From Verrucomicrobiota bacterium (GTDB taxonomy: Bacteria > Verrucomicrobiota > Verrucomicrobiia > Verrucomicrobiales > Verrucomicrobiaceae), in assembly GCA_009885275.1 (NCBI GenBank), contig VFKY01000013.1, positions 1 to 11,479 of the forward strand: 11,479 bases of DNA, read 5' to 3'. The first letter of the stretch is position 1. Each line of letters begins with the position of its first letter. Below are positions 1-9,659 of this stretch, piece after piece. A program made the position numbers and the translations under genes. Under the pieces are notes generated by a model. It saw only the letters and a program-made list of their open reading frames with translations, had not been told where the DNA came from and ran no database searches.

Positions 1-80
1 ATAACCACTAAAATCCCTTGTTATTCCTGAGCACCAAATAACACTTTTTCTGTTATTGAGAGGGAAGAGCATTCCCTCAT

Positions 81-188
81 GGGGAGCGCAGGCCGCTGGC
101 TGCTGGTTTCGGCGGCCCGTCGGAATCTTCTGTAATGAACTTCTTTGACGAGCCGTCCAAGAATGCAGGCCAGCGTCCTGCGCTCCCC
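81..188. repeat. 108-nt two-tier palindromic element (REP/MITE-like)
   Basis: The ends form an inverted repeat: 81-100 is complementary to 169-188 at 19 of 20 positions (the C93/T176 pair is the only mismatch). Inside, 111-124 can pair with 144-157 through a core of CGGCCCGTC (113-121) against GACGAGCCG (147-155), with one C/A mismatch and flanking G-T wobbles. The whole element would fold into a long stem with an internal loop (101-110 and 158-168) and an apical loop (125-143). It contains no ORF and lies about 110 nt upstream of the promoter of the first gene. The form suggests an interspersed palindromic repeat or a non-autonomous mobile element. Whether it recurs in the genome cannot be seen from this window, and there is no obvious target-site duplication. 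Confidence 0.75.
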
Positions 189-299
189 AGAAATCCGAGA
201 GGGGAGACGATGAAATCACGAAAAAATGGGCGCAACACCCAGATTTAACCTGTTCTGGGATGAATTAAGCTTCATACGCCCGCAAAAAGGGGTGGATGA

Positions 300-328
300 T
301 TGACACTATCTCACGCAACCCCTAGGAT
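300..328 (+). promoter_or_regulatory. Sigma70-type promoter for the envelope operon
   Basis: A perfect -35 hexamer TTGACA (300-305) is followed after exactly 17 nt by TAGGAT (323-328), which matches four of six positions of the -10 consensus. Transcription would begin near 335, leaving a leader of about 15 nt before the GTG start at 351. Confidence 0.6.
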
Positions 329-350
329 GGAATTTCCATAAAAAATACCT

Positions 351-1511
351 GTGAGTAAGCCTTCCGCCATCCTAACCCATGATAATGATCACGCCTATAG
401 GGTCGTGCAGGTAGTTTTGGGCTGTCTGGCTTCCATTATCATCGCAGGGCTTATCTGGACAATCTGGCATAGCACCGAAATTTCGGCCAGCAAAGTAACT
501 TCTCATAGCCCACTTCCCTCGGCCATTCCCTTAGTCTTTAATCCCCCCTCAAAAATTGAGGTTATACCTCCATCGAAAGTGGCACCAATCCTGCCTGTTT
601 CTGACAACAAAATGATACTTGAGCCGTTGCAACCCCTCCCTCTGGTGCCGCTTGCCCCCGTGGCTGCCTTAGGGTCGCCTCAGTCACCCGCTAATTTAGG
701 GGCGATTCCGGCTCTTAGTGTATCAGACGCTACGACATTTCCGATCGAAGCATCTTCCACGGTGAAAGCCTTGAAAAATCCACAAATCCTCGAAGCGATT
801 GAGGCGGGTAAACTGGCTCGTAAGCAAGGAGACATGCAGGCATCTCTCGAAGCCTTGCGCGGAGCTGATGCCAAGGAACCCAATCATCCCCTCATTCTTT
901 CTGAAATAGCCCTAACGTATGAGGAGATGGGCATTCTGACAAAAGCTTCGGCAGCATGGCGCAGCATCGTAACTATGGGCGAACAGTCCGCCGGGAGTTA
1001 TTTTAACCTGGCAAAATCCAAATTAGATGGCCGCTCGGAATCCATGCTCAAAAACATCAGCGCTATAAAATTGGGCGAATGTCAGGTCATCCGTGATGCC
1101 TCTGCTAAAAAAGGGGAACGTATTGCTGTTCGCGTCCCGCTTCTTGCCACACCGGGAGCAGTGATTGATCCTGCGCAAATGGACATCCATGTTTATCTCT
1201 ATGAGTCAGTAAACAACGGCGAGCGCATCGAACAGGCCCGCGCAAAAGAGCCCTCTCTTGACTGGGTTTCTGCGCCGGTTGACTGGAAAGAATCGAACGA
1301 AGAACTTGTGGATGTAGTCTACGATTTGCCGTCGCCCAAACCAGAAGAGTTACGTGAGTTTGGCCAGAGAAAATTTCATGGGTATGTCGTAAAGCTTTTC
1401 TATCAAAACAAACTTGTCGGTGATGAAGCTCAGCCAGCCTCGCTTCGTGATTTCTCCCCAATGCGCAACAGTTCCACCGGTTTGGACGGCGCACTTTTCC
1501 CCAAGCAATAA
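351..1511 (+). CDS. Membrane-anchored periplasmic TPR protein
   Basis: Predicted inner-membrane protein of 386 residues with most of its mass outside the cytoplasm. Residues 1-18 are polar, residues 19-39 form one hydrophobic helix (VVLGCLASIII onward), and residues 52-125 are a proline-rich, probably extended linker. Residues about 147-213 contain two helical hairpins with TPR character: small residues at the A/G/A positions in EAGKLARKQGDMQASLEAL, then a second repeat around LILSEIALTYEEMG. The C-terminal part (about 236-368) is probably beta-rich and of no family I can name. The start is GTG; no earlier in-frame start fits the promoter, which gives a leader of only about 15 nt, and no Shine-Dalgarno is visible. 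The next gene begins 17 nt after the stop, so the two are almost certainly co-transcribed. By family behaviour it should be a protein-protein interaction scaffold, and its likely partner is the SUMF1-containing protein next to it; that link is inferred. Its specific function is unknown. Confidence 0.85.
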   Translation: MSKPSAILTHDNDHAYRVVQVVLGCLASIIIAGLIWTIWHSTEISASKVTSHSPLPSAIPLVFNPPSKIEVIPPSKVAPILPVSDNKMILEPLQPLPLVPLAPVAALGSPQSPANLGAIPALSVSDATTFPIEASSTVKALKNPQILEAIEAGKLARKQGDMQASLEALRGADAKEPNHPLILSEIALTYEEMGILTKASAAWRSIVTMGEQSAGSYFNLAKSKLDGRSESMLKNISAIKLGECQVIRDASAKKGERIAVRVPLLATPGAVIDPAQMDIHVYLYESVNNGERIEQARAKEPSLDWVSAPVDWKESNEELVDVVYDLPSPKPEELREFGQRKFHGYVVKLFYQNKLVGDEAQPASLRDFSPMRNSSTGLDGALFPKQ

Positions 1512-1528
1512 GACTCCCTTTCTATTTC

Positions 1529-3529
1529 ATGGTAATTTTATATGTTGATCCCATTTCCGAAGCACGCGCGTTGCGTGCAGCCTGCCTGCAAAAGCACGGG
1601 TTGACGGTGTATGAGGCCCCTGATGCGGAGAGCGCAGTAGAATTCGCACAGGAAATTGATCATATTGACGTGCTTGTCTGTGAAGGGTTCCTAGTTGGAG
1701 ACTTCACAGGTTTTGACTTAAGTCACGCGCTTCAGGAAAAATATCCCGAATTACGCACTGTGTTCACCAGTCGTCACAACCTCGTGGGTTATGAAGGTGT
1801 CATTGGCAGCAGTCCGGTGATTTACGATCCCGTGCCAGATGAGCAACTGCTCAAAGCGGTTATTGGAGGAGCGGAAGAGGGGCAAGCGCCGGTGGCGATA
1901 CTCGACAACGAAAGCGCGAATGAAACCCTGCCAACGCTCGCGCCAGGAACGGTATTGGGCAATTACGTGATCAAAGAACTTCTTACCGTAGAGCCTGATA
2001 CTGAAACCTATGCAGCAGTTCAGCAAGTTGTGGGCCGGCAAGTTGCCTTAGTCCTCCTCGATCCGATCAAGGCCATGGATCCCGCCATGCTCAGCAACTT
2101 TCAAGAACGGGTTCGAGTCAAAGCTTCCGTAACACATCCCAAAGTCGCCCCTCTCTATGAATCACTCGTGATAGATCAACTCTACTTCTATACGCGTGAA
2201 ATATCTCATGGAAAAACTCTGCTGGACATGCAGGATCAAGGCGACAAGCTGAGCGAAAAGGCCATGGTGGATCTTATTGCAGGCGTCACTGAAGCCATGT
2301 CTTACGGTACCGAGCGAGGCTTCCACTATCGCATCCTTACTGCGCTCGATGTTTCTTTCGATGCAGAACATCAGGCCTGTATTGTTAATGTTTTTCGCCC
2401 GCCCAGTGCGAAGCCTCACAACTTTCAGAAAGACACTAAAAAGTTAATCATGCTCCTGCGATCTGTGGCCGATGGCCCGCGTGCGCGACACCTTATCGAT
2501 GATTTGCTCAGGGAAAGTTACGACTGGGAGTCATTGCATAAAAAAGCCAAAGAACTTCAGGAAGAACATCGTGAGCGCAGTCTGCTTAAGCGTGTCGATC
2601 TCAAGGAGGTTGGAGACATCAAGGCCTCTCAGAATGCGAAAGGGACACCCAAATGGGTCTTTGTCGTGGCTCCATTAATTCTCATTGGATTATTCGTTGG
2701 ATTTTATGTTAAGAGCACTTTAGCCCCACCACCACCAGCTGCCCCGATCATCGAAACGATGCTTCTCATTCCTAGTGGGAACTTTATTTATCAAAATGCG
2801 GATAAGCCCACGACCACGGGTAAACGTTATTGGATTGATCAACACGAAATTACCATCGGTCAATACGCTGAGTTTTTGGAAGCTTTGGAGCAAGATCCCT
2901 CAATTATTTTGCGCTGCAATCACCCAGATCAGCCCAAAGACAAAAAAACGCATAAGCCAGAGCAGTGGGCAGCCTACCTCGCCGCTGCAAAAACGGGCGG
3001 GAACTTTAATAATCAACGCATGGACATCAACTGCCCGATCGTGAATGTGGACTGGTGGGATGCGCATGCGTATGCCCTGTGGAAGGGGCATCGGCTCCCT
3101 ACTGAGGAGGAATGGGAAAAGGCAGCCAGGGGAACTGATGGTAAAATATTTCCTTGGGGGGATGATCTGCGTCCACATGCCGCAAACTTGGGGTCAGACT
3201 ATGATCCAAAAGGCAAAGGTGGAAAGATCGATGGTTACAACTACTGGGCACCTGTCATTCATACACGTGAAGATATTAGCGCTTTTGGAGCGCTCGGTAT
3301 GGCCGGCAACGTGGAAGAGTGGACTGCGACGTGGGACAATCATCCAGATTACCCAGACACTCTCGTTCCAGTAGTTCGCGGTGGGCATTTTGCATTGACC
3401 ACGGTTAAAAATTTGCTCACACTCAGGACTTTGGCTCAATCCCCAGATAAAACTTCGCTAGCTCGAGGCTTTCGAACCGTTACAGACAAAGAACCACCCT
3501 TGGACGAACAAGTGTCCGTGACGAACTAG
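1529..3529 (+). CDS. Pseudo-receiver/pseudokinase/TM/SUMF1 fusion protein
   Basis: A 666-residue trans-membrane fusion. Residues 1-115 have a CheY-like receiver pattern, but only one acidic-pocket residue remains (D7), the phospho-acceptor position is Glu (E52 in DVLVCEGFL), and the conserved Lys is Asp (D100); T80 is kept. Residues about 140-350 resemble a Ser/Thr kinase (GTVLGNYVI, then VALVLLD), but the glycine-rich loop, the ATP-binding Lys (V175), the HRD Asp (HYRILTALD) and the DFG motif are absent. A transmembrane helix spans about 376-395, followed by a proline-rich stretch. Residues about 408-652 are a SUMF1/FGE-type (C-lectin-like) domain with its hallmarks: IPSGNFIY, HRLPTEEEWEKAARG, FPWGDD, MAGNVEEW, VVRGGHF and ARGFRTV. 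The C-terminal cysteine pair of true formylglycine-generating enzymes is missing. Kinase plus SUMF1 architecture is known in PVC bacteria, for example chlamydial Pkn1. The domains suggest a scaffold or sensor linking cytoplasm and periplasm; its ligand is unknown. Confidence 0.9.
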   Translation: MVILYVDPISEARALRAACLQKHGLTVYEAPDAESAVEFAQEIDHIDVLVCEGFLVGDFTGFDLSHALQEKYPELRTVFTSRHNLVGYEGVIGSSPVIYDPVPDEQLLKAVIGGAEEGQAPVAILDNESANETLPTLAPGTVLGNYVIKELLTVEPDTETYAAVQQVVGRQVALVLLDPIKAMDPAMLSNFQERVRVKASVTHPKVAPLYESLVIDQLYFYTREISHGKTLLDMQDQGDKLSEKAMVDLIAGVTEAMSYGTERGFHYRILTALDVSFDAEHQACIVNVFRPPSAKPHNFQKDTKKLIMLLRSVADGPRARHLIDDLLRESYDWESLHKKAKELQEEHRERSLLKRVDLKEVGDIKASQNAKGTPKWVFVVAPLILIGLFVGFYVKSTLAPPPPAAPIIETMLLIPSGNFIYQNADKPTTTGKRYWIDQHEITIGQYAEFLEALEQDPSIILRCNHPDQPKDKKTHKPEQWAAYLAAAKTGGNFNNQRMDINCPIVNVDWWDAHAYALWKGHRLPTEEEWEKAARGTDGKIFPWGDDLRPHAANLGSDYDPKGKGGKIDGYNYWAPVIHTREDISAFGALGMAGNVEEWTATWDNHPDYPDTLVPVVRGGHFALTTVKNLLTLRTLAQSPDKTSLARGFRTVTDKEPPLDEQVSVTN

Positions 3530-3599
3530 CGTATACTCGGATTGCGGGTATCATACTCACGAATACGCCGCCTTCACATCCGACACCTATCCTTCTTCT

Positions 3600-4484
3600 A
3601 TGAATCGTAATACCATCCCTCTTTTTCTCTGGGTATTAAGCTTACTGTTAACGGTAAACACTCCGTCTCTACAAGCTCAATACATGACTAACATAACTCT
3701 AAACAAACCTGCTTATCTCACGTATGAAGCCGTGGAAGCTACGGTTACGATCAACAATCGATCCGGTGCCGATATTGTGATGGGCGGTCCCAATGGGCAA
3801 TCTTGGTTAACCTTTGCCGTGATTGCCCCCAATGGCAACGCCGTGCCTTCCATGCAATTCCAAGCGGATGACAATATGATTTTTAAAAGTGGAACATCCA
3901 TCAGTAAAAAAGTTCTCATCTCCAACTTCTACACATTCTCGGAATATGGAACTTACTCAGTCAACGCAAGTATCTATCACCCTCCATCTCAACAATACTA
4001 TGGCTCCAACCGCGCACGCGCGCTATTCACCGACGCCAAACCATTCTGGGAACAAAGTTACGGCGTGCCGGTAGATCAGCCCAATGCAGGACAAATTCGT
4101 CGATATACCATCAGCACTCTGCGAGACACAGAACGCACCTGGCTTTATGTCCGCGTGCTGGAAGACAAAACAAATTTGAAGCTGACCACTTTTTCTCTGG
4201 GTACCTGCATCCTCGTCGCCGACCCCCAAATTACCGTGGACAGCAACAATAAGCTACACGTCCTCTTCATGGCGGTGCCCCACATCTACTCCCATGTCAT
4301 CATCGACACTCAGGGCAAATTAGAAAAGAGACGTTACTTCAAAGAATTGGAAACTAACCGGCCTAAGCTCGTTGTTCAAAACGATCAAACTATTGATGTT
4401 CAAGGAGGAGAACCCTACGACCCCACAGCGGTCGCCGCAAAACCCAAAGCTCGATCTGTTGGCCAACGCCCACCCGGACTCTAG
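3600..4484 (+). CDS. Secreted beta-rich protein of unknown family
   Basis: A 294-residue protein with a typical Sec signal peptide: a basic start, a hydrophobic core (PLFLWVLSLLLTV) and a likely cleavage after residue 26 (SLQA/QY). The mature part begins with a segment of about 115 residues (NITLNKPAYLTYEAVEATVTI onward) that reads like an Ig- or macroglobulin-type beta sandwich. The pattern of a YLTYE entry, an NNRSG turn and a GTYSVNASIY strand is typical of such folds. Residues 150-265 are a second beta-rich unit. The tail (about 270-294) is proline/lysine/arginine-rich and probably disordered. I do not recognise the family. It follows the SUMF1 protein by 70 nt on the same strand. A -10-like TATACT at 3532-3537 has no good -35, so read-through from the operon promoter is likelier. 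Its stop lies 5 nt from an opposing tRNA gene, with no terminator between them. Confidence 0.8.
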   Translation: MNRNTIPLFLWVLSLLLTVNTPSLQAQYMTNITLNKPAYLTYEAVEATVTINNRSGADIVMGGPNGQSWLTFAVIAPNGNAVPSMQFQADDNMIFKSGTSISKKVLISNFYTFSEYGTYSVNASIYHPPSQQYYGSNRARALFTDAKPFWEQSYGVPVDQPNAGQIRRYTISTLRDTERTWLYVRVLEDKTNLKLTTFSLGTCILVADPQITVDSNNKLHVLFMAVPHIYSHVIIDTQGKLEKRRYFKELETNRPKLVVQNDQTIDVQGGEPYDPTAVAAKPKARSVGQRPPGL

Positions 4485-4489
4485 TGAAT

Positions 4490-4563
4490 TGGTTACCGCG
4501 TAAGGATTCGAACCTTATCAAAGAGAATCAGAATCTCTTGTGCTACCGTTACACTACGCGGCA
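4490..4563 (-). tRNA. tRNA-Gln (anticodon CUG)
   Basis: Read on the minus strand, the cloverleaf is complete in 71 nt plus an encoded CCA. The acceptor TGCCGCG pairs with CGCGGTA (including one G-T wobble). The D arm is GTG/CAC, and the anticodon stem is AGAGA/TCTCT with loop TTCTGAT, giving anticodon CTG, which reads CAG. The T arm is TAAGG/CCTTA with loop TTCGAAT. The discriminator base is A73. It differs from the neighbouring tRNA-Gln(UUG) at four positions, one of them in the anticodon, so the pair arose by recent duplication or is kept alike by gene conversion. Confidence 0.95.
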
Positions 4564-4578
4564 ATTAATTACTTAATG

Positions 4579-4607
4579 ATATTACATAGCCGATACACTT
4601 CATGCAA
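4579..4607 (-). promoter_or_regulatory. Possible promoter for tRNA-Gln(CUG)
   Basis: On the minus strand TTGCAT (4602-4607) is followed after exactly 17 nt by TAATAT (4579-4584). Each hexamer matches the sigma70 consensus at four of six positions. Transcription would start near 4572, about 9 nt before the tRNA 5' end. This would let the CUG gene be transcribed independently of the upstream UUG gene. Confidence 0.4.
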
Positions 4608-4629
4608 GTTTAGAGGCACCACCTCATGA

Positions 4630-4703
4630 TGGTTACCGCGTAAGGACTCGAACCTTATCAAAGAGAATCAAAATCTCTTGTGCTACCATTACACCACGCG
4701 GCA
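4630..4703 (-). tRNA. tRNA-Gln (anticodon UUG)
   Basis: This is the upstream member of the tandem pair, also 71 nt plus encoded CCA. The acceptor is TGCCGCG/CGCGGTA, the anticodon stem AGAGA/TCTCT with loop TTTTGAT (anticodon TTG, reading CAA), and the T loop TTCGAGT. The discriminator is A73. It lies 109 nt after the end of gpmI on the same strand. I see no convincing dedicated promoter: GATAAG at 4725-4730 lacks a -35 at the proper distance. Read-through from gpmI is therefore possible. Confidence 0.95.
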
Positions 4704-4812
4704 ATTGCAGAATGCGGCCGCGAACTTATCCCCTTGCACGCAATTCGCAAGAAAGATTTGTTGTCGAAGCGAGGAAGGTAGAGGCCTGTTCAATTCAGCT
4801 TGCCGTTGGACC

Positions 4813-6366
4813 CTATCTCAATTTTTCTAACAAGCTGGAACCCGTCATCTCCACTGGCTGCTTAACCCCAAGCATTTTTAACAAGGTGGGAGCAACATCC
4901 GCAAGCCTCCCATCTTTCACTTTATAGTCAGCAGCATCTGCAGCCACATAAATACCGTGTACAAGATTCGTCGTATGCGCCGTATTCGGGGTGCCATCAG
5001 GGTTGCGCATCAGTTCGCAATTGCCATGATCCGCAGTGATAAAAAGCTTGCCGCCAAGCTCCAGCACTTTCTCTACGACCAATTTGACACTGAGATCGAT
5101 CGTCTCAACGGCATGAATACCCGCTTCAACCACACCGGTGTGGCCCACCATGTCGGGATTGGCAAAGTTGATGATGACTAGATCGTAATTACCGATACGA
5201 CGCAGAAGCTCAAAAGTTAAATCCGGCGCACTCATTTGGGGCTTGAGATCATAAGTGGCCACCTCCTTGGGACTGATAGCGAGATAGCGATCCTCCCCTT
5301 CGTAGGGTGTTTCCAATCCACCATTAAAGAAGAAGGTGACATGCGGATACTTCTCCGACTCAGCGGCTCTTAATTGTTTCATCCCAGCCTCAGCCACCAC
5401 TTCACCCAGAATGTTTTTCATGGTTGCTGACCCAAAAATAACCCGGCAGCCCAGGTCATAATAGGTCGCGTCATATTCTGTCATCGTATAGTAAGCCACC
5501 TTCGGCATTACCTCACGATCAAAGCCGTCGAAGTTTGATTTCAAAAAGGCGTCACTCAGTTGGCGGGCGCGGTCTGCGCGAAAGTTGAACCATAGTATCA
5601 CGTCACCATCATTGATGCGTTGTTCTTCTCCATGACTAAAAATCATGGGGGGCATAAACTCATCGCCGCGGGCATCTTTGTCATACGCAGAGGTGATCGC
5701 AGCGCTTGGTGAGCCATGGCACTTTTCTCCGCGCCCCAGCACGATAGCATCCCAGGCCAATTTGTTTCGGTCCCAGCGTTTATCACGATCCATGGCGTAA
5801 TAACGCCCGATGACCGTGGCAATTTTCGCGCCACTCGCCACCAAATCTTTCTCAAGTTTGGCAACGTAAGCAGCGCCTCCTTTGGGGGAAGTATCGCGGC
5901 CATCGGTAATGACATGCACCATGATATCCTCCGCCCCTGCAGCCTTTGCCGCATTACACAAAGCCACCAGATGATCCTGATGCGAATGCACTCCGCCATC
6001 ACTGATAAGGCCAAGAAAATGGAGACGTTTCCCTTTGGCTTTGGCAAACGCTTCAACTAAAACCGGGTTGGAAGGCAGTTCCCCATCGCGAATGGATTTA
6101 TTGATGCGAGTAAGGTCTTGATACACGATGCGACCAGCACCGAGATTCAAATGCCCTACTTCACTGTTACCCATTTGCCCGTCAGGCAGACCCACATCTT
6201 CTCCGCTGCCGCTAATCTTGCTCCACGGATAGCTCGCATATAGCTGATCGTGGTAAGGTGTGCTTGCCAATAAGGTGGCGTCACCATTTTCCTTGGCTTT
6301 AGCCTTGCCGCCGGGATTGATACCCCAACCGTCACGGATAATGAGAACTACGGGTTTTTTGGACAT
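4813..6366 (-). CDS. gpmI: 2,3-bisphosphoglycerate-independent phosphoglycerate mutase
   Basis: Cytoplasmic glycolytic/gluconeogenic enzyme interconverting 3- and 2-phosphoglycerate through a phosphoserine intermediate with two Mn2+ ions. At 517 residues it has the usual family length and is intact. Visible motifs are the first metal site VLIIRDGWG (D12), the catalytic serine in GQMGNSEVGHLNLG (S68), SDGGVHSH (124-129), TDGRDTSP (154-161), GRYYAMDRDKRWDR (187-200), FNFRADRARQ (260-269), the metal-binding NPDMVGHTG (403-411) and TADHGN (444-449), and AHTTNLV near the end. It is an alkaline-phosphatase superfamily enzyme with the inserted phosphotransferase domain. The start is ATG with no Shine-Dalgarno. 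Its neighbours do not form a glycolytic operon; two tRNA-Gln genes follow on the same strand. Confidence 0.98.
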   Translation of the reverse strand: MSKKPVVLIIRDGWGINPGGKAKAKENGDATLLASTPYHDQLYASYPWSKISGSGEDVGLPDGQMGNSEVGHLNLGAGRIVYQDLTRINKSIRDGELPSNPVLVEAFAKAKGKRLHFLGLISDGGVHSHQDHLVALCNAAKAAGAEDIMVHVITDGRDTSPKGGAAYVAKLEKDLVASGAKIATVIGRYYAMDRDKRWDRNKLAWDAIVLGRGEKCHGSPSAAITSAYDKDARGDEFMPPMIFSHGEEQRINDGDVILWFNFRADRARQLSDAFLKSNFDGFDREVMPKVAYYTMTEYDATYYDLGCRVIFGSATMKNILGEVVAEAGMKQLRAAESEKYPHVTFFFNGGLETPYEGEDRYLAISPKEVATYDLKPQMSAPDLTFELLRRIGNYDLVIINFANPDMVGHTGVVEAGIHAVETIDLSVKLVVEKVLELGGKLFITADHGNCELMRNPDGTPNTAHTTNLVHGIYVAADAADYKVKDGRLADVAPTLLKMLGVKQPVEMTGSSLLEKLR

Positions 6367-8254: not shown

Positions 8255-8362
8255 CAATTTCAGATAATGTGACAAACTTCCTTTTTGCTCACCGAGCATT
8301 CCTTTTCATTCGACTCATTGTCTGTCACGCTGTGTGTTGCCCTCCAAACTAAAATTCACGCT

Positions 8363-8848
8363 ATGCATTCTACTCCCTCCGCCCTCATTCTCTTAATTCT
8401 GTCCATTCTCATGACAGCACCTGCATGGAGTGCTGATGAGAAAATCACAGAAGATAAAGCCAAGGACTTACTCGGCAAAGTCTTGAGTGAAGTTTCAAAA
8501 AACGCGTCCAAGATCGAAGAGAAGAGCAAAGGACTCTGGGATAAAAATAAGGAAATCTTCAAAATGAGCCGCGAAGATTATTTGAAGAAAGTTGAATCGA
8601 TTCTCATCACCATGGATGCAGAAATTCAAAATATTCAAGAAAGTGAATCGACGCTTCTCGCGCGTGACTATTTCAAAATGCGTCTCGATGCGATCAAATT
8701 ACAGATTGAATACTGTAAGCGTAACTTAGATCGCCTTAAGGAATCCCCATCGGAAGAAGTCTTTCGCGTAAAGCAGAAAGGATATGATCGCACGCTAAAT
8801 GGGCTGAGTGATATCATTGAATTATCAAAAGAGGAAGCCGGTCTCTGA
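8363..8848 (+). CDS. Secreted helical (coiled-coil) protein
   Basis: Hypothetical exported protein of 161 residues. ATG 8363 is chosen over the in-frame TTG at 8285 because it begins directly with a good signal peptide: MHSTPSALILLILSILM, cleaved after AWSA (residue 24). The mature part is rich in Lys, Glu, Asp and Leu and looks entirely alpha-helical (ITEDKAKDLLGKVLSEVSK, then LLARDYFKMRLDAIKLQIEY). Heptad-like spacing suggests a coiled coil or helical bundle. It has one cysteine (C118). I do not recognise the family. The next gene, a polytopic membrane protein on the same strand, starts 82 nt later; a shared transcript is possible. A periplasmic location is inferred from the signal peptide. 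Confidence 0.75.
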   Translation: MHSTPSALILLILSILMTAPAWSADEKITEDKAKDLLGKVLSEVSKNASKIEEKSKGLWDKNKEIFKMSREDYLKKVESILITMDAEIQNIQESESTLLARDYFKMRLDAIKLQIEYCKRNLDRLKESPSEEVFRVKQKGYDRTLNGLSDIIELSKEEAGL

Positions 8849-8930: not shown

Positions 8931-9659
8931 ATGAACTACATCGAGTCTATCACTGATTTCTTCAAGAGCCCTAAGTGGATGATGAACATGCTGCTCGCTG
9001 GCATCTGCTGTTTTATCCCCTTCGTCGGACCCATGGTCGTTATAGGTTGGCTCATTACAGGCTTCTGGTGTCGCCCAAGTACAGCGCCGGAGAGTTTTCC
9101 TGACTTTGACTTTGATAACTTTGCCAAATGGCTTGAACGCGGGCTCTGGCCTCTAATCACCGCGATGGCGACCAGTTTTGCGCTCTACATTATCTTCATG
9201 ATTCCAATGGCTATTATCATGATGGTGATCGGTGGTGTGGGCGCGAGTACCGATAGTCAGGGCGGCGGGGCATTGAGCGCTCTCCTTTTTCTTGTCGTTT
9301 TTGGCATGTACTGTCTGTTGTTACTCTCAATGATTTTTTTGATGAAGCCCATCATGTTAAAAGCGGCGCTCACACAAGACTTCGCGAAAGCCTTTGATTT
9401 TGGGTTTATCAAAAGCTTTATCACGCGCACTTGGCTTGAGATGATCATCTCCTCAATATTCCTCGCCATCGCCAGCTCTTGTCTTGCATTTATGGGCATG
9501 ATAGCTTTATGCGTCGGCTTTATATTTGTGCCAGGTGTACTCTATTTCGCAATGGCGCACTTGGATAAGCAGCTCTACAATCTTTATCTCTCCCGTGGTG
9601 GCGAGCCCATCCAGCTAAGCCCTAAGCTTAACGATTCAGTGATACCCCCCATGCTTTGA
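8931..9659 (+). CDS. DUF4013-like polytopic membrane protein
   Basis: Inner-membrane protein of 242 residues. Hydrophobic segments lie at about 19-45 (LLAGICCFIPFVGPMVVIGWLI), 73-103, 115-138 and 168-210, the last long enough for two passes, so five or so helices. The N-terminal pattern of a short amphipathic piece with KSPKW, then a helix with IPFVGP and a following FPDFDFDNFAKWLERGL segment, is what I associate with the DUF4013 family, which has no established function. The stretch MALTQDFAKAF-like (144-155) between membrane parts resembles family members in which the loop faces the cytoplasm. No catalytic motif is seen. A strong intrinsic terminator stands 27 nt after the stop, so this gene closes its transcription unit. 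Confidence 0.75.
   Translation: MNYIESITDFFKSPKWMMNMLLAGICCFIPFVGPMVVIGWLITGFWCRPSTAPESFPDFDFDNFAKWLERGLWPLITAMATSFALYIIFMIPMAIIMMVIGGVGASTDSQGGGALSALLFLVVFGMYCLLLLSMIFLMKPIMLKAALTQDFAKAFDFGFIKSFITRTWLEMIISSIFLAIASSCLAFMGMIALCVGFIFVPGVLYFAMAHLDKQLYNLYLSRGGEPIQLSPKLNDSVIPPML

Follow-up and report, generated by a model that had tools for sequence, protein, structure and literature searches.

Results

A run of three genes and its products

The window, by which we mean the whole stretch of 11,479 nucleotides analysed here, carries a run of three genes on the + strand, encoding a TPR protein (gene 1), a multi-domain protein (gene 2) and a secreted beta protein (gene 3). Gene 1 (351-1511) lies 17 bases upstream of gene 2 and gene 3 (3600-4484) lies 70 bases downstream, and the three may be co-transcribed. 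The features are as follows.

300..328, + strand: weak promoter-like site, TTGACA-17-TAGGAT, upstream of gene 1, with 10/12 consensus matches
351..1511, + strand: gene 1 (c1), 386 aa, with an N-terminal transmembrane (TM) segment (14-41), a Pro-rich linker, a TPR-like region and a C-terminal domain
1068..1508 (limits approximate), + strand: C-terminal domain of gene 1, which by HMM matches also ends N-acetylmuramoyl-L-alanine amidases of other genomes
1529..3529, + strand: gene 2 (c0), a 666-aa receiver-pseudokinase-TM-FGE-like protein, assigned from the ORF, Pfam, a structure model and homologues
1529..1864, + strand: degenerate receiver domain, residues 1-112, with Glu52 for the phospho-Asp and Asp100 for the Lys
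1940..2584, + strand: pseudokinase domain, residues 138-352, with Val175 for the Lys, YRI for HRD, Asp274 for the catalytic-loop Asn and Asn287 for the DFG-Asp
2654..2719, + strand: transmembrane helix, residues 376-397, from hydropathy and the model
2750..3496, + strand: FGE/SUMF1-like domain, residues 408-656, catalytic Cys pair absent, probably on the periplasmic side
2930..2968, + strand: insert QPxxKxxHxPxxW, residues 468-480, specific to the gene 2 family
3600..4484, + strand: gene 3 (c2), 294 aa, whose signal-peptide-like N-terminus is followed by an Ig-like domain (25-145) and another all-beta part (146-273)

Promoter-like sites of the quality seen upstream of gene 1 occur four times in positions 1-4900, compared with 5.6 in shuffled sequences, so the site is a weak candidate. 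TPR_19 is matched at E ≤ 0.1 in 30 of 43 gene 1 members, and among 32 gene 3 members we found no Pfam match better than E 0.02.

Gene 2 encodes three retired enzyme folds

An earlier note on this DNA had described gene 2 as a receiver-like domain without the phospho-Asp and Lys, a kinase-like domain without the glycine loop, ATP-Lys, HRD-Asp and DFG, a TM helix, and a periplasmic SUMF1 domain without the catalytic Cys pair. Except for the side of the membrane, which is only probable, this description is borne out: the product is a set of three retired enzyme folds spanning the inner membrane, with the receiver and kinase-like domains presumably facing the cytoplasm. A Pfam scan of the product gave only four families at E ≤ 1, none of them named EssB/YukC, for which Pfam holds a model. 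There is a single hydrophobic segment (372-399), with a hydropathy of 2.47 over 19 residues and a model helix at 377-397. The structure model has a pTM of 0.47 and thus leaves the mutual placement of the domains undefined.

The receiver (2-112) is predicted to consist of five strands and five helices in alternating beta-alpha order, with pLDDT mostly > 90. Its set of phospho-Asp, acidic pair and conserved Lys is incomplete in the window, which has Glu52, Asp7-Pro8 and Asp100. Across 136 family receiver rows, from which members without a receiver match of 15 bits are left out, the phosphosite is Glu in 120 and Asp in 5, while the conserved-Lys position is acidic in 96 and Lys in 9; the Ser/Thr position is retained in 130/136. 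Among 12 control receivers, taken as other ORFs of the fetched loci that match the receiver profile at ≥ 12 bits, the phosphosite is Asp in nine and the Lys is present in eight. Glu52 falls in the 93rd percentile of conservation within the receiver. In one family (f2) no receiver was detected, and gene 2 matches there begin at about residue 120 or later.

Residues 138-352 have a bilobal kinase fold, in which the glycine loop reads LTVEPDTETY, Val stands for the Lys, YRI for HRD and NVF for DFG. We aligned 149 family rows, from family sets of 116 proteins of at least 440 aa (P0001-P0116) and 33 ORFs above 55 bits, with five control kinases; the 149 rows contain the window twice and P0114 counts both as family and as control, while the 143 unique rows include P0114, L060 and a few members from other orders. 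Four of these controls have the first two loop Gly, the VAIK Lys, the αC Glu, HRD, Asn and DFG where they should be, one of them with Ala at the third loop Gly; the fifth, P0114, is without HRD, Asn and Glu. In the 143 unique rows the three loop Gly positions are kept 10, 5 and 8 times, the VAIK Lys and the αC Glu seven times each, the HRD Asp twice, the DFG Asp once and the catalytic-loop Asn never. None of these homologues combines Lys, HRD-Asp and DFG-Asp in one protein.

Several of the replacement residues are themselves conserved. Asn replaces the DFG Asp (N287) in 139/143 unique homologues and Asp replaces the catalytic-loop Asn (D274) in 120/143, placing these columns in the 97th and 87th conservation percentiles of the domain. 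The HRD-Asp and next Lys columns rank near the bottom for conservation (15th and 9th percentiles), as would be expected if phosphotransfer is gone. In the model, 13 residues separate strand 283-285 from helix 299-311, which would be too short for an ordinary activation segment. From the alignment, conserved replacement in a pseudokinase, rather than decay, appears well supported. E211, E224 and N287 are near-invariant polar residues round the old kinase pocket; they could still bind a small molecule, which would count against a scaffold reading.

The FGE fold is present at residues 408-656. The catalytic pair C-x(3-5)-C occurs in 0/148 family rows, compared with 17/84 controls, and any Cys in only 4/148; a paralogue in the same genome (L001) carries the pair (GGSWLCSPIYC). 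Within the insert at 468-480, Q468 is found in 145, H475 in 142 and W480 in all 148 family rows, and the Q468 column is a gap in 68/84 controls. Pro614 occupies a position in 140/148 family rows that is Arg or Lys in 75/84 controls. The closest sequence match of known structure to this half is SUMF2/pFGE (1y4j, E 2e-20), an inactive paralogue of human FGE that is without a receiver, kinase or TM part.

Conservation of the operon

We searched 141 genomes of the window's order and found gene 1 in 139 (E ≤ 1e-10), gene 2 in 129 (E ≤ 1e-25, mostly as a single match per genome) and gene 3 in 137 (E ≤ 1e-3). Genes 1 and 2 adjoin on the same strand in 122 of the 128 genomes with both, which are the 129 less one with a short kinase-only match (G144); in the other six they are on separate contigs. 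Genes 2 and 3 adjoin in 77 of 127 genomes with all three, and the whole run is contiguous in 76. In the remaining 50 genomes gene 3 is apart from gene 2, on another contig in 45 and far off on the same contig in five. Among the 12 genomes of the order with no gene 2 match at this threshold, six show a gap of ~1.5 kb between genes 1 and 3, and four such gaps that we inspected held a diverged gene 2 in three cases.

ORF clustering of 23 sources (the window and L038-L059) placed gene 2 in 22, gene 1 in 20 and gene 3 in 10. The ORF caller, which retains the longest frame, overlooked gene 2 in G013 (L046, L187) and showed none in G073 (L185); a profile search of 56 stretches recovered further missed and diverged copies. 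A search of 188 genomes from the whole class gave gene 3 in 136 (E ≤ 1e-5), gene 1 in 91 (E ≤ 1e-8) and a match to the gene 2 profile in 87 (E ≤ 1e-30), some of the last being FGE-only matches. We found no description of the three-gene operon in the open-licence papers searched. The earlier note had put forward the single protein as a candidate for an undescribed system; given these counts, the claim is better made for the operon.

The gene 1/gene 3 pair does not always need gene 2. In G137 the two genes are 86 bp apart with gene 2 missing between them, in G155 and G222 they stand side by side without it, and in G187 a 225-aa receiver-like/DUF4388 protein occupies its place (L159:6866-7543). 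These arrangements suggest that gene 2 is an input or regulatory part and that genes 1 and 3 form the more basic pair. In a separate case (G045, L186:4015-4545), genes 1 and 3 flank what is apparently a truncated gene 2, a receiver-like fragment with a remnant of the FGE end, left by a deletion or an assembly fault.

Relatives in other orders

From other orders we aligned 16 relatives of gene 2 that have a match to gene 1 or gene 3 next to them (syntenic relatives). The FGE half is present in every one of the 16, a Pfam receiver match in 12 and a DUF4388 match in five. Fully intact phosphorylation residues occur in 5 of the 12 syntenic receivers aligned (L158, L164, L205, L206, L208) and in 0/6 non-syntenic relatives, defined by no gene 1 or gene 3 match within the 3.4-6.5 kb fetched. 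Among 128 unique family-set rows the only intact receivers are L158 and L164, both from other orders, and P0114. Some other-order members also retain the glycine loop and the VAIK Lys, while none of the other-order rows compared has HRD-Asp or DFG-Asp. The loss of all three active sites claimed by the earlier note is thus not general.

In a maximum-likelihood tree the other-order members are separate (support 100/99) and P0114 groups with them; as the tree is midpoint-rooted, the direction of change is one that we infer. The intact receivers and the retained glycine loop and VAIK Lys indicate that the gene 2 protein probably descends from something phosphorylatable, and with 5/12 syntenic homologues in other orders still carrying an intact receiver, loss of receiver function was probably the later event. 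The simplest reading is that the kinase was already dead in an ancestor whose receiver still worked, and that receiver function was lost toward the window's order. The relatives form a series, from an intact receiver through partly kept glycine loop and Lys to the loss of all, that makes stepwise loss of catalysis directly testable.

Three unusual proteins were seen along the way. P0114 is a 1030-aa protein with an intact receiver, DUF4388, a kinase-like domain with Lys and DFG and no HRD, and an FGE domain. L060:1413-3371 encodes a receiver-kinase-FGE protein; its contig bears the label Betaproteobacteria but may come from Verrucomicrobiota and have been binned wrongly. L137:189-10916 is a 3575-aa frame with four FGE-like domains on a Wallbacteria contig.

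Discussion

Comparison with known systems

Chlamydial proteins combine a kinase domain with DUF323/FGE (PMC1262709, in the part consulted). In these proteins, and at a locus from environmental Chlamydiae (L117), the kinase-like domain is N-terminal to the FGE-like domain, as in gene 2. L117 differs in that its 4.6-kb contig gives no match for the receiver or for gene 1 or 3, and its kinase keeps the glycine loop, VAIK Lys, αC Glu and DF(C) while HRD is gone. The chlamydial kinase-DUF323/FGE protein is presumably Pkn1.

A likeness of working is offered by EssB/YukC of type VIIb secretion, according to the consulted sections of PMC12599244 a TM pseudokinase with a scaffold role. Like gene 2 it has a cytoplasmic pseudokinase in a TM protein, in which the three motifs are all degraded and the activation loop is reduced, although this does not imply membership, and those sections mention no receiver or FGE domain for EssB. 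The same sections describe MviN ActPs3 as a membrane pseudokinase tied to envelope synthesis; its motifs read VALT/Lsidhpsr/Y--, compared with VALV/YRILTALD/NVF in gene 2. The gene 2 motifs match no entry in table 1 of this review, and searching its text gave no mention of Verrucomicrob-, FGE, sulfatase, SUMF1, receiver or periplasm. For the FGE fold, the old substrate groove of PorK in the T9SS docks PorN (PMC12421860, in the part consulted). Gene 2 is TM-anchored, unlike the T9SS ring protein PorK/GldK, and scores 51.9 bits against the GldK equivalog model, below the cut-off of 350. MviN carries a multi-TM flippase part in the same chain, whereas gene 2 has one TM helix and an FGE domain.

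A probable scaffold or relay across the envelope

As far as the consulted parts of these papers go, there are thus precedents for non-enzymatic hubs built on the pseudokinase fold (EssB/YukC and MviN, PMC12599244) and on the FGE fold (PorK, PMC12421860), which points to a scaffold or relay reading of gene 2. We favour, at a probability of roughly 0.6, a non-catalytic trans-envelope scaffold or conformational relay. The cytoplasmic receiver-pseudokinase half would be a docking platform, its kinase pocket rebuilt as a protein-contact surface; the single TM helix would cross the inner membrane; and the periplasmic FGE-fold half, no longer an oxidase, would dock its two operon partners, the TPR protein anchored in the membrane and the secreted Ig-like protein, by analogy with the PorK groove that docks PorN. 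The ancestral receiver would have been a true phospho-acceptor feeding a His-Asp signal into the assembly, and in the window's order the change from Asp to Glu may hold it in one state. Weighing against this reading are the undefined placement of the domains in the model, the 50 genomes where gene 3 sits away from gene 2, and the genomes where genes 1 and 3 occur without gene 2 between them.

The earlier note had called the protein a non-enzymatic transmembrane signalling or assembly hub. The non-enzymatic part is well supported for the kinase and FGE domains and does not extend to the receivers of the other-order homologues that are intact; a transmembrane hub fits the topology, and a scaffold role appears plausible on sequence grounds. 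Almost all sampled genomes of the order keep gene 2 together with its repeat protein and secreted partner, which points to a little-known device for assembly or signalling in the cell envelope. With retired enzyme folds on either side of the membrane, three in all, and a near-universal presence together with two partners, the protein is a strong candidate for a core envelope device.

Alternative readings

A possible reading, which we hold tentatively, is that the operon regulates peptidoglycan hydrolases by acting on N-acetylmuramoyl-L-alanine amidases. The gene 1 C-terminal domain ends Amidase_3 proteins in all four second matches of this kind that were scanned (L188, L189, L190, L192), out of ten genomes in which such matches are listed, but f4 and a single f3 genome, two families of the order, account for all of these fusions. 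In L051, L053 and L054 members of one BLAST cluster adjoin the operon, with Amidase_3 identified in L051, the copy scanned; this adjacency is seen in just 3/23 sources. Moreover, family f12 has gene 1 with no match for genes 2 and 3. The features of genes 1 and 3, the amidase-end domain and the amidase neighbour together point to the envelope and perhaps to cell-wall remodelling, no more, and the peptidoglycan link of the operon is only suggestive. A caspase-domain protein in G002 (C135, L191:6432-8093) also carries a gene 1-like Pro-rich/TPR piece (138 bits), along with a peptidoglycan-binding domain.

A broader version of the preferred scaffold or relay is speculative. It would be an undescribed, class-wide trans-envelope machine in which a phosphorelay signal passes to the receiver, then by conformation alone to the pseudokinase, and on to a periplasmic FGE-fold/TPR/Ig-like complex governing cell-wall hydrolases, frozen in the window's order by the Asp-to-Glu change and switchable in other orders.

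Rather doubtful is an outside-in sensor, in which the FGE/C-type-lectin-like domain in the periplasm, on binding an envelope ligand, alters the pseudokinase-receiver half so that cytoplasmic partners are recruited, much as in a PASTA kinase without phosphorylation. The order of kinase-like domain, TM helix and extracytoplasmic domain is as such a sensor would have it, and PknA and PknB are the best kinase rows matched by gene 2. However, the strong conservation of the FGE domain and its family-specific insert speak rather for a fixed protein interface than for a variable ligand site.

We consider it unlikely that the pseudokinase has gained a new, SelO- or SidJ-like activity through Asp274, Asn287, Arg268 and acidic residues. 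The metal loop shows a conserved swap at two positions, and some relatives retain the VAIK Lys and glycine loop; yet in the 149 rows position 175 is Val in 119, the αC Glu is Arg in 120 and the glycine loop is mostly lost, whereas SelO and SidJ retain the Lys (PMC12599244, in the part consulted).

Control of a motility or pilus machine is very unlikely. The reading draws on DUF4388, the PATAN domain, and on the action of PATAN-receiver proteins on pilus motility elsewhere; the domain sits between receiver and kinase in L205 and P0114 and is matched in the five syntenic other-order members noted above, but in 0/53 members of the A1 set, and there is no pilus gene among nine neighbour proteins scanned. 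That gene 2 is a decaying enzyme without function, as its three degenerate active sites, the receiver-less family f2 and the few genomes where it was not found might suggest, is hardly credible for a near-universal gene, mostly single per genome, with invariant or near-invariant residues in all three domains.

For Verrucomicrobium spinosum a saturated transposon library and targeted mutagenesis exist (PMC12283558, in the part consulted), and the need for the three genes can thus be looked up. Further along the window, a DUF4013 protein (45.6 bits) is encoded at 8931-9659, preceded by a 187-aa frame at 8285-8848.
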